From Ignavibacteriales bacterium (GTDB lineage Bacteria > Bacteroidota > Ignavibacteria > UBA10030): DNA of 64,000 nt. The stretch covers positions 62,001 through 126,000 of the forward strand of contig JAPLFQ010000022.1 in the NCBI GenBank assembly GCA_026390595.1. The letters run 5' to 3'. Every line of letters starts with the position of its first letter. Within the stretch, counting starts at the first letter, position 1. This document shows, in pieces, positions 19,798 through 22,708 of the stretch. A program made the position numbers and the translations under genes. The notes below the pieces were generated by a model that was not told where the DNA came from, did not search any database, and was given only the letters and a program-made list of their open reading frames with translations.

Positions 19798-19853
19798 GGG
19801 GGGGGAGCAGTGTCCGATCCGCGACCGGACTGACAATAGATCGCTCAATGTGC

Positions 19854-19890
19854 AAAGGGGCGCTGGCTTGCTCTTCCAGCGCCCCTTTTT
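19854..19890 (+). terminator. Rho-independent terminator
   Basis: 13-bp stem AAAGGGGCGCTGG / CCAGCGCCCCTTT with a nine-base loop and T tract, 57 bases after the small Rho-N-like gene. Confidence 0.9.
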
Positions 19891-19970
19891 GTATTTTGCG
19901 AAGCAGTTCTTCCAGAGTCAATGAGCGGAGTAGAATTCCGCCATGGGTCTTCTTCGACAGTCCAACCTGC

Positions 19971-20108
19971 CCGAACCATGCTTTTTGGGGCAGGCGGGCT
20001 GACGAAAAACAATCCTAGCCTGAACTCGACTCGTCTACCAACGCCGCCCTCTCCTGTTGTCCGACAGTTGTACTGTCGGACTGACCTCATGCGAGAGTTC
20101 CACTCTCG
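19971..20108. repeat. Direct repeat 1, left copy
   Basis: 138 bases identical by eye to 21364-21501. Contains the right part of a long A palindrome plus B and C. Confidence 0.9.
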
Positions 20109-20112
20109 CTCC

Positions 20113-20248
20113 TTGCCGAATAGTCGCCAGGGCGTTGACACTGTTTCCCTGGAGTGAAACTCCAGCATGGGCCTTCTTCGACAGTGTAACTGTCGAAGAA
20201 CAACAGGCCGTTCACTCCAGCGCCGCTTCTGCCGTCGCAACAACGTTT
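20113..20248. repeat. Direct repeat 2, left copy, including a duplicated URO-D gene tail
   Basis: 136 bases matching 21596-21731 with two differences. Contains palindromes D and A and then 20212-20248, a copy of the last 37 bases of the URO-D-like gene (stop codon and 11 codons). That gene itself is at 21695-22708, so this copy is a displaced fragment. Confidence 0.88.
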
Positions 20249-20787
20249 ATCCTCGACTCACACGAGAGTTCTACTCTCTAGCCCTTCCCAAAGCGTCAAT
20301 CGTTTCAAGTAGCACGCTATCACCAGAACCTCTATCTTGATGATAAACCCATTCGTGCCGTTGATCTCCCGGAGCACAACTCCGGCATGGATCCTTTTCG
20401 ATAGTGCAACCTGCCCACCGGATCCTTCATCTTGGGCAGGGGCTGTCGAAGAACGACAGACTCTTGGTGTCAGCCCAATCTTCTGTTGTCCGACTGTTGT
20501 ACTGTCGGACTCGACTCAAGCGAGAGTTCCACTCTCGGTCCTTGCCAAACAACCGCCAGGTCGTTGAAATCGTTTCCCTGGAGTAAAACTCCAGCATGCG
20601 CCTTCTTCGACAGTCTAACCTGCCCGCCAAACCATGCTTTTTGGGGCAGGCGGGCTGTCGAAGAACAGCAGGTTGTTGCCACGACGCTTCCCCCAAGTCG
20701 CAAACGTTGTCCGACAGTTGTACTGTCGGACTAACCTCATGCGAGAGTTCCACTCTCGCTCCTTGCCCCACACCCTGTGAGTCCGGC

Positions 20788-21327
20788 ATGAAAAAGCCAT
20801 GGACATTCGATGATTCGAATTCCCTTTTCTTCTGCACTGACGTCATTGTCGGATGGCAGTACGTTTTCACATCAACCGAGTTCTTCGAGACGATCATCGA
20901 TTCGCTCAAATATTGCCAGGAGAACAAAAGCCTCAGATTGTTTGGATATGTTGTCATGCCAAACCATGTACATTCCATAGTCTCTGCCGCACAAGGTAAC
21001 CTGGCATCAATCATACGAGATTACAAACGGCACACGTCCTGGAGGATCTCAGAACTTCTCGGAGAGGCAAGAAACAGGCGTTTGCTAAAGTACTTTCATA
21101 CGGTTGCAAGACGGGAGGATAGGGGAAACGAACACAAGATCTGGCAAAGCGGAAGTCACCCCGTATTGATCGAGAGCAGCCATTTTTTCGAACAGAAGCT
21201 GGAGTACATACACAACAATCCGGTCACCAAGGGTTATGTTGAAAGGCCTGAAGATTGGAAGTTCTCAAGCGCGAGGAACTATGCTCTAGGGGATAACTCC
21301 ATCATCAAGGTCGATTTCTTGGAGTGA
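20788..21327 (+). CDS. REP-associated tyrosine transposase (RAYT, Y1/IS200-like)
   Basis: 179 residues. It has the HUH motif HVH (60-62, in VVMPNHVHSI) and the catalytic Tyr (Y140, in KLEYIHNNPV) of the Y1 transposase family, in the arrangement of RAYTs, which process palindromic REP elements and are often single-copy domesticated genes. Its ATG lies in a half D palindrome and its TGA stop lies inside another (21319-21335), so the coding frame exactly fills the space between palindrome units. No recognisable ribosome site. It appears intact. Confidence 0.9.
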   Translation: MKKPWTFDDSNSLFFCTDVIVGWQYVFTSTEFFETIIDSLKYCQENKSLRLFGYVVMPNHVHSIVSAAQGNLASIIRDYKRHTSWRISELLGEARNRRLLKYFHTVARREDRGNEHKIWQSGSHPVLIESSHFFEQKLEYIHNNPVTKGYVERPEDWKFSSARNYALGDNSIIKVDFLE

Positions 21328-21683
21328 AACTCCGGCTTGGGCCTTCTTCGACAGTGTAGCCTGCCGAACCATGCTTTTTGGGGCAGGCGGGCTGACGAAA
21401 AACAATCCTAGCCTGAACTCGACTCGTCTACCAACGCCGCCCTCTCCTGTTGTCCGACAGTTGTACTGTCGGACTGACCTCATGCGAGAGTTCCACTCTC
21501 GGACAGCGGGAAGTGAATTGCTCGTGAGGTTGCTCATCCTGGAGTATAACTCCAGCATGAGCCTTCTTCGACAGTGCAACTGTCGAAGAACAACATTGCC
21601 GAATAATCGCCAGGGCGTTGACACTGTTTCCCTGGAGTGAAACTCCAGCATGGGCCTTCTTCGACAGTGTAACTGTCGAAGAA
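21319..21683. repeat. REP-like palindrome array, right of RAYT
   Basis: Continuation of the array: D at 21319-21335, 21539-21555 and 21632-21648; A at 21344-21402 (long), 21564-21590 and 21657-21683 (short); B at 21452-21474; C at 21484-21501. The last A palindrome ends 11 bases before the stop codon of the minus-strand URO-D-like gene. Confidence 0.9.
21364..21501. repeat. Direct repeat 1, right copy
   Basis: Identical by eye to 19971-20108 (offset 1,393 bases). Confidence 0.9.
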
Positions 21684-21731
21684 CAACAGGCCGTTCACTC
21701 CAGCGCCGCTTCTGCCATCGCAACAACGTTT
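21596..21731. repeat. Direct repeat 2, right copy (original URO-D end)
   Basis: Matches 20113-20248 (offset 1,483 bases) with two differences; its last 37 bases are the genuine 3' end of the URO-D-like gene. Confidence 0.88.
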
Positions 21732-22708
21732 TCCGGCGGCACGTTGGGAAGCAGCGCCTCGTGGCTCGGGCTCACAATCAGCCGCGGCCCCAGTAAGTTC
21801 TTGATTCGCCGGACCTCCGCCCTCACTCCCTCCGGCCCGGAATTCACCAGCACATCCTGCGTGTCAATACCGCCAAGGAATGCAATACGTCCGCCGAACT
21901 CACTGGCAAGCGTCTGCGCATCCATATTCGCCGCCCGCGCCTGCAGCGGATGGAGACAATTGACGCCGGCATCGATGAGCCGGCCTATGACGCGGTGGAC
22001 CGATCCGCACGAATGCAGGATGACCTGGTAACCGTGCCGGTGTGCCTGATCGGTAAACTTCCGAAACCAGGGAAGAACGAATTCATCGAACACCTCCGGC
22101 GCAAGGATCAGGTCCCGCTGCGTTCCGAAATCATTGCCGAAGAAAAACCCGTCCATCGAATCCCCCGCCTGCGTGAACAGCTGCCCGTTTGCCGCGTGGT
22201 AGAACCCGCAGACCCGATCGGTCACGGCGTGCACAATCTCCGGATGCGTGTACATCTTCGTCAGATAATTCTCGGCGCCGAAGATATCCATCACATTATG
22301 GAAGAAAGGCGTCCAGAATCCACCAGCCCGGTAGAATTCACCCGCGTTGTTCATGGTCTGGAGGCATTCGGTGAGGTCGAGGTACTTGATGTCCGGCCAG
22401 TCGTACGACTCCACTTCGTCCAGACTCTCACACTCCGCAAGCGGACCGGGTTCCCCAAGGTATTTCTTGTATTTCCACAGGTCGAAGATCCCCTTCCCGT
22501 CGGGATGCTGATAGCTCGATTCGATGAAGAGCGGCGTGATCCAACGGAAATCATCGCCGACTGCGCGTTGGAGCCCCTCAAGCGTGGAGGTGCCAAAGTA
22601 CTTGTGATAGATAGGCAGTGTGTCGGGATGCGGATTTCCCAGCCAGAACCCGCAGCGGTCTGCCGGCTTTCCATCGATAATATTGCGTATGCGTTCGCGG
22701 CTTGTCAT
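21695..22708 (-). CDS. Uroporphyrinogen decarboxylase (URO-D) family protein
   Basis: 337 residues from the ATG at 22708 (AGGA five bases upstream; a TTG at 22723 is an alternative). It has the URO-D TIM-barrel pattern: TSRERIRNIIDGKPADRCGFW at the start, VILHSCGSVHRVIGRLIDAGVNCLHPLQ (metal Cys/His region) and GGIDTQDVL. It lacks features of true HemE, and such relatives act as methyltransferases or in catabolic pathways. It is divergent from a sodium:solute symporter. Its last 37 bases are duplicated at 20212-20248. Confidence 0.82.
   Translation of the reverse strand: MTSRERIRNIIDGKPADRCGFWLGNPHPDTLPIYHKYFGTSTLEGLQRAVGDDFRWITPLFIESSYQHPDGKGIFDLWKYKKYLGEPGPLAECESLDEVESYDWPDIKYLDLTECLQTMNNAGEFYRAGGFWTPFFHNVMDIFGAENYLTKMYTHPEIVHAVTDRVCGFYHAANGQLFTQAGDSMDGFFFGNDFGTQRDLILAPEVFDEFVLPWFRKFTDQAHRHGYQVILHSCGSVHRVIGRLIDAGVNCLHPLQARAANMDAQTLASEFGGRIAFLGGIDTQDVLVNSGPEGVRAEVRRIKNLLGPRLIVSPSHEALLPNVPPENVVAMAEAALE

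Follow-up and report, generated by a model that had tools for sequence, protein, structure and literature searches.

The RAYT gene and its palindromes

The window, by which we mean the whole 64-kb stretch of DNA analyzed here (G000:C22:62001-126000), lies in a genome of 4.77 Mb (G000) and contains an intact RAYT gene surrounded by an array of palindromes that spans 19925 to 21683 (Table 1). The encoded protein scores 106.4 bits with the NCBIfam profile REP_Tyr_transpos (cutoff 80), and Y1_Tnp is the sole Pfam domain found in it. PDB entry 4er8, which is TnpAREP with a REP hairpin, matches the protein by sequence and is also its best PDB match by fold (E 8.6e-9); the AlphaFold model has a mean pLDDT of 91.3. 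H60, H62, and Y140 are invariant across 26 aligned RAYT sequences, the window's included, in agreement with an earlier note on this DNA that had described a complete RAYT with HVH and Y140. The protein carries the motifs NHVH, WQ, and YIHNNP, with about 80 residues between HuH and Y and with SS downstream, and its closest named kin are encoded on JACVXU010000194.1 (Bacteroidetes bacterium B4_bin.17, 84%) and QYQB01000219.1 (PowLak16_MAG13, 80%). Judged by its motifs, length, and Bacteroidetes kin, this RAYT carries the features of subclass 2.6 (group 5).

There is one close copy of the RAYT in G000, together with two distant matches (31% identity over 64 and 54 residues). In two relatives, G028 and G027, the RAYT also sits inside an array of these hairpin doublets, near contig ends that leave a single flank for comparison, and on that flank it is adjoined by the same URO-D-like gene (83-85% identical). 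This shared neighbor in three species shows that the RAYT has been kept in place. In all three, a D palindrome overlies the RAYT stop codon (TGA, 21325-21327 in the window). G028 and G027 additionally encode a second RAYT (L061 and L062), 49% identical to that of the window, with its own hairpins, whose core is AGC-N3-GCT rather than AGT-N3-ACT.

Table 1. The RAYT gene and the REP hairpins around it, in window coordinates. Palindrome starts are from the pattern scan.
Feature	Position	Strand	Palindrome starts	Basis or detail
REP doublet D-A (inverted REP); A with G+C-rich loop insert	19925..20009	-	D 19925, A 19950	pattern scan
REP doublet B-C	20059..20109	+	B 20059, C 20091	pattern and perfect-hairpin scans
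REP doublet D-A (inverted)	20149..20200	-	D 20149, A 20174	pattern and perfect-hairpin scans
C single, without B; 88 nt to next D	20262..20280	+	C 20262	pattern and hairpin-order scans
REP doublet D-A (inverted); A with loop insert	20369..20453	-	D 20369, A 20394	pattern scan
REP doublet B-C	20488..20538	+	B 20488, C 20520	pattern scan
REP doublet D-A (inverted); A with loop insert	20578..20665	-	D 20578, A 20603	pattern scan
REP doublet B-C, left end of RAYT-bearing unit (B-9-C-559-D)	20709..20759	+	B 20709, C 20741	pattern and hairpin-order scans
RAYT (Y1 HUH transposase)	20788..21327	+		179 aa; HVH at 60-62, Y140; intact
REP doublet D-A, right end of RAYT-bearing unit; D overlaps RAYT stop codon; A with loop insert	21319..21402	-	D 21319, A 21344	pattern scan; A end from sequence
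REP doublet B-C	21452..21502	+	B 21452, C 21484	pattern scan
REP doublet D-A (inverted)	21539..21590	-	D 21539, A 21564	pattern scan
REP doublet D-A (inverted), last of the array	21632..21683	-	D 21632, A 21657	pattern scan

The array contains seven D, seven A, four B, and five C palindromes, the numbers that had been reported for it. Loose pattern limits also gave spurious near-matches, and the true palindromes were chosen by their central AGT/ACT; the end of the fifth A was read from the sequence. The A palindromes, correctly numbered before, had been treated as one kind, although four of the seven (19950-20009, 20394-20453, 20603-20665, and 21344-21402) have a G+C-rich second hairpin instead of a three-base loop. 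Beyond 19800-21800, the 64-kb window holds no further A, B, C, or D palindrome (mismatch limits of 4 for A and B, 3 for C, and 2 for D) and no loop-insert form of A or B. Perfect AGT-N3..5-ACT hairpins with a stem of at least 5 bp number 17 in the window, 16 of them within the array, and the same scan of 20 sequences simulated with the window's dinucleotide composition yielded 0 to 6 each.

The loop insert is itself a palindrome (CCCGCC...GGCGGGCAGG or its complement) that takes the place of the three-base loop in A and B hairpins, so that one repeat is nested in the hairpin loop of another. We also observed it at L227, L231, L232, L237, L242, L244, L016, L019, L145, and L181. In the listed copies, its position is about the same, between CAG(T) and ACTG.

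Near-exact internal copies (19971-20108 and 21364-21501, identical over 138 nt; 20113-20248 and 21596-21731, 99% over 136 nt) indicate that part of the array grew by duplication.

Four palindromes, one two-hairpin REP in two orientations

All four palindromes share the core AGT-N3-ACT. B-C (21448-21503) and D-A (21537-21592) are 73% complementary over 56 nt, and D-A is therefore an inverted B-C: the four palindromes represent two inverted copies of one two-hairpin REP. The outer hairpin of this REP is B or A, with a stem in ...CGACAGT; the inner, shorter hairpin is C or D, with a stem in ...GAGT. Read in reverse, D-A consists of outer A, linker, and inner D, paralleling the outer B, linker, and inner C of the other copy. 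The linker between outer and inner hairpin is mostly 8-9 nt, and CATG spans it in 20 of the 30 doublets checked. These REPs differ from the canonical GTAG REP, a single hairpin with GT[AG]G at its 5' foot: each has two hairpins, and GT[AG]G was found within 2 nt of a hairpin foot in none of 259 hairpin strands.

This anatomy does not agree with the "ordered set of four different hairpins" that had been proposed for the locus; the arrangement is that of a BIME or REPIN. The array by itself fits both readings, since four of its stretches can be read D-A-B-C and four can also be read B-C-x-D-A. The frame of the unit is thus settled only by copies elsewhere, which favor B-C-D-A.

Dispersed copies share a B-C-spacer-D-A unit

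We scanned the loci that had been fetched for holding A or B, or C-spacer-D, and found 17 outside RAYT arrays that hold all four hairpins. Sixteen of these have the order B-C-D-A (three in G000, ten in G028, and three in G027). The gap between C and D is 89 nt in 13 of the 16 and 87, 88, and 95 nt in one each, and the C-D spacers are homologous when aligned. The B-C linker is 8-9 nt, unless a loop insert confuses the count, and the D-A linker 7-10 nt, giving a B-C-89-D-A unit of about 190 bp. Truncated forms (C-D-A, A-D, and A-D-C) are dispersed as well. The single exception among the 17 (G000 C25:336302-336492) reads C-D-A-B-C.

That exception and the four D-A-B-C stretches of the array are what could be cited for one undescribed element of four different hairpins. 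Given 16 of 17 dispersed loci with the order B-C-D-A and a C-D spacer of 87-95 nt, and given that D-A is the inverse of B-C, we consider such an element very improbable and reject D-A-B-C as the unit. The order noticed earlier does recur within the array; the unit that disperses is B-C-spacer-D-A.

In one such unit, the RAYT lies within the spacer between C and D (B-9-C-559-D). RAYT-bearing and small units have sequence in common at both hairpin ends, and BLAST of the usual 89-nt spacer against the RAYT unit gave no clear RAYT homology past those ends. A relic of the RAYT 3' end lies beside D in one non-coding copy, where 16 of 18 nt agree with window positions 21301-21318; none of 19,000 window positions reaches 14. 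Three more D-adjacent spacers match the RAYT 3' end at 14, 13, and 12 of 18 nt, and as the best of 19,000 window positions is 13, only the first exceeds it. We considered whether simple deletion within the RAYT gene could have produced the 89-nt spacers and rejected this, because BLAST homology is essentially restricted to the hairpin ends and one copy alone has a clear coding relic.

Upstream of B, several G028 copies (L154-L157, L165, L166, and L169) have up to about 190 nt in common, and some also share 175 nt downstream of A. The common sequence includes a TCCCGCGAAGCGGGA palindrome, as if the copies lay within a larger repeat, so the mobile segment in G028 may exceed 190 bp.

The C-spacer-D core was found only in genomes that carry the RAYT

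With up to two mismatches, and with the array included, A occurs in 14 places and B in 18 places in G000. The palindromes are therefore not absent elsewhere in the genome, and the earlier description of a REPtron, with the RAYT set among palindromes of its own, is supported, as they both flank the gene and recur at a distance from it. An exact pattern for the C-spacer-D core, which misses diverged units, matched three of the 98 genomes of the order, namely G000 (3 matches), G027 (3), and G028 (13). One of these matches in G000, which joins neighboring units, and two in G028 lie inside RAYT arrays. The same three genomes are the only ones among 32 family genomes searched to encode a RAYT 80-100% identical to that of the window. 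As the three carriers are congeners, the association of C-spacer-D with the RAYT may reflect one event.

The single hairpins are more widespread. B was found at up to two mismatches in 9 of the 32 family genomes and A in 8, so that neither is restricted to carriers of the window-type RAYT. A second class of doublet, A-7-B with outer A and inner B, occurs in G000, G028, and G027 and once in G026, and similar A-B doublets with linkers of 6-8 nt are found in G011. No RAYT was matched in G011 at E 0.001, and the best RAYT match in G026 is 31% identical. As these doublets lack a close RAYT, related hairpins may be, or may have been, mobilized by other enzymes. As to whether the arrangement is common in genomes lacking this RAYT, C-spacer-D is limited to carriers, but A or B alone and the A-B doublets of G011 and G026 are not.

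Two further loci show other arrangements. L206 (G031:C45:1500-4500), from another genus of the family, repeats B'-40-D-8-A three times in tandem, once every 223 bp. The second is an A-B doublet on G000:C1 (L001, match at 1501), flanked on each side by a 96-nt direct copy of a CACGGATTACACGGAA-type sequence, the two copies being near-identical.

Filled and empty sites show insertion

Three unit insertions have an empty orthologous site in a relative. For the unit on G000 C25, the G028 site is empty, with flanks that are 91% identical, the left one covering only 128 nt to the contig end; G025, G029, and G026 have 525, 600, and 120 bp of other sequence between the aligned blocks. The unit on G000 C19 is missing from G025 and G029 (flanks 70-76%). 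That on G028 C149, which lies between what we take to be two cell-wall genes, is missing from G000 and G026 (flanks 69-81%), and in the relative nearest to G028, G027, the site is taken up by 102 bp of different or decayed sequence. At a further site (L156), aligned blocks 65-72% identical are 186 bp apart in G026 versus 754 in G028; it was left out of the count. Several units occupy shared orthologous sites in different species (e.g., G028 C277 with G027 C12), which indicates that some are old.

The filled and empty sites show real insertion, accompanied by direct repeats in two of the three cases. G000:C25:227302-227569 (L199) is flanked by direct repeats of 24 nt, identical at 22 positions, and G000:C19:130280-130515 (L201) by repeats of 19 nt, identical at 18. 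In the alignments, the repeat sequence of both is single-copy at the empty sites of relatives, and these repeats look like target duplications. The insertion at L159 is flanked by 27-nt direct repeats with 3 mismatches; no direct repeats of the C25 or C19 strength were found at the G028 C149 insertion. Among 44 units tested with 250-nt flanks, 6 score at least 15. With 100/130-nt flanks, 4 of 44 units do so; the same score is reached by 2 of 1,892 pairs of mixed flanks and, among 1,100 random gaps, by 3 (highest 49). Since the top-scoring unit (L001, 96 nt) may be flanked by another dispersed repeat, we rely only on the two repeat-flanked insertions that also have an empty orthologous site. 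IS200/IS605 (Y1) transposition is not known to leave target duplications, and 19-24-nt direct repeats at two of three filled and empty sites are thus a real loose end.

One alternative is that the hairpins act as RNA, as terminators or mRNA stabilizers, rather than as mobile DNA. The D palindrome over the stop codon in the window and in two relatives would suit this, and one unit folds strongly, although as single-stranded DNA (z -6.3 versus shuffles). A role in RNA does not account for dispersed copies with conserved spacers or for empty orthologous sites, and we regard it as most improbable as the whole explanation. The D hairpin over the stop codon may nevertheless add regulation.

Another alternative is that the repeats are old, that recombination, gene conversion, or another transposase has spread them and kept them similar, and that the RAYT is a bystander. 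The perfect 138-nt duplicate in the array, the old insertions common to species, the A-B doublets of G011 and G026, and the long direct repeats beside some copies are all in keeping with this. It is harder to reconcile with empty sites that have recognizable flanks, with a C-spacer-D unit confined to RAYT carriers, and with small units that have both hairpin ends of the RAYT-bearing copy, one of them with a RAYT relic. We therefore think a bystander role unlikely.

Hairpin doublets recur beside other RAYTs

To assess generality, we used 61 RAYT loci: the window, 45 of 57 from a homologue search that yielded named records, and 15 of 29 from the search of family genomes, the remainder being dropped as partial, duplicate, or weak. 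Strict same-core doublets occur within 300 nt of the RAYT in 10 of 39 rough clusters (15 of 75 sides); the same test gave one hit in 1,500 shuffled flanks and none in 285 control windows. In a strand-corrected test that allowed one stem mismatch, doublets were found in 8 of 36 clusters (12 of 70 sides), with none in 1,400 shuffles or 273 controls. On 8 of these 12 sides, the inner hairpin is shorter than the outer one. Examples are GGTCGGGATT-tgc followed by CGGATT-tgc at L072, from a Bacteroidetes MAG, and CTCCCAAGC-tct followed by TGGAAGC-tct at L047; L076 and L097 have similar doublets. Most of the 36 clusters have no doublet in the same-core test. A two-hairpin REP is recurrent beside such RAYTs, though not shown to be universal.

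A candidate non-autonomous unit moved by the RAYT

Building on the anatomy, the near-fixed spacing, the dispersal, the three filled and empty sites, and the association with the RAYT, we consider it likely that the locus is the REPtron of a subclass 2.6-like RAYT and that B-C-89-D-A is a non-autonomous, REPIN-like mobile unit moved by this RAYT. The RAYT would bind folded hairpins on single-stranded DNA through their shared core, use Y140 to cut close to the REP feet, and move the B-C-x-D-A unit, while the RAYT copy itself would stay put. The strong single-stranded DNA fold of one unit and the structural match of the enzyme to TnpAREP are in keeping with this model. By analogy with GTAG, a candidate for the guide is CATG, which lies at the foot of the inner hairpin. 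We infer the part of the RAYT as cutter, the single-strand route, and the role of CATG from the comparisons above.

A bolder proposal is that subclass 2.6 RAYTs of Bacteroidota have a mobile unit of their own, made of inverted REPs whose long and short hairpins share one loop-closing core, and also their own way of inserting, in which staggered or copied ends would leave target duplications of variable length (about 19-27 nt), unlike IS200/IS605. We think this rather unlikely.

Comparison with known systems

Like IS200/IS605 elements, this system has a Y1 HUH enzyme fold and hairpin ends. It differs in having YIHNNP rather than Y---Q, non-autonomous units, long direct repeats flanking some sites, and one close gene copy, kept in place beside the same one-side neighbor in three species, rather than a mobile multi-copy gene.

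TIRtrons are RAYT-like genes with inverted repeats of two palindromes (e.g., P. putida 607 and P. fluorescens 4255), and the relevant passages of PMC3733652 describe the repeats as a degenerated GTAG REP with an unrelated stem-loop or as repeats unrelated to REPs. The RAYT here is likewise flanked by inverted repeats of two palindromes, but both of its hairpins share one core, unlike those described for TIRtrons (PMC3733652). Of the 26 TIRYTs of PMC3733652, 20 are placed in subclass 2.1, which has a C-terminal HTH domain, in the part of PMC6006769 that treats them. The 179-aa protein of the window has Y1_Tnp only and no C-terminal HTH. A scan of 19900-21750 gave one match to the TIR motif GGGGWSAS, which lies in RAYT coding sequence, and a scan of three dispersed units gave none.

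The system also resembles REPINs and BIMEs, as the relevant text of PMC3116915 presents them: REPs form inverted pairs with a conserved spacer, dispersed through the genome and clustered beside the RAYT. As in a REPtron, the RAYT is flanked by copies of its own dispersed REP family, with one full RAYT per REP type. The differences from those REPINs (PMC3116915) are two unequal hairpins per REP, no GTAG foot, and a unit of about 190 bp, as well as copy number, with 3, 10, and 3 complete units in three genomes here versus hundreds of copies there.

Close counterparts are the RAYTs of subclass 2.6, or group 5, for which PMC6006769 gives, in its account of the group, the motifs NH[LIV]H, WQ, and YIH[QN]NP, a length of about 179 aa, and, in Bacteroidetes, flanking "atypical secondary structures" without GT[AG]G that have copies elsewhere in the genome. 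The window's RAYT shares these motifs and this length, with the HuH-Y distance, the downstream SS, and Bacteroidetes MAG kin, and its flanking structures also lack GT[AG]G and have dispersed copies (PMC6006769). The earlier suggestion of an undescribed REPtron-type element thus holds for the anatomy, of which we found no prior description in the open-licence literature, and not for the subclass, whose atypical flanking structures were already on record (PMC6006769). The system is REPIN/BIME-like, has a RAYT with the features of a known subclass, and has an anatomy that we have not found described.

That account leaves the flanking DNA of the Bacteroidetes subclass, which has no GT[AG]G guide, as "atypical" only (PMC6006769), whereas here the structures resolve into two-hairpin REPs with one core, in inverted pairs at near-fixed spacing. 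This two-hairpin anatomy may explain the atypical structures of subclass 2.6. It defines a candidate substrate, a unit of about 190 bp whose REPs each pair two hairpins of one core across a linker that mostly contains CATG, for which assays of binding, cleavage, and excision can be designed, and it thereby bears on whether subclass 2.6 moves DNA as IS200/IS605 elements do.
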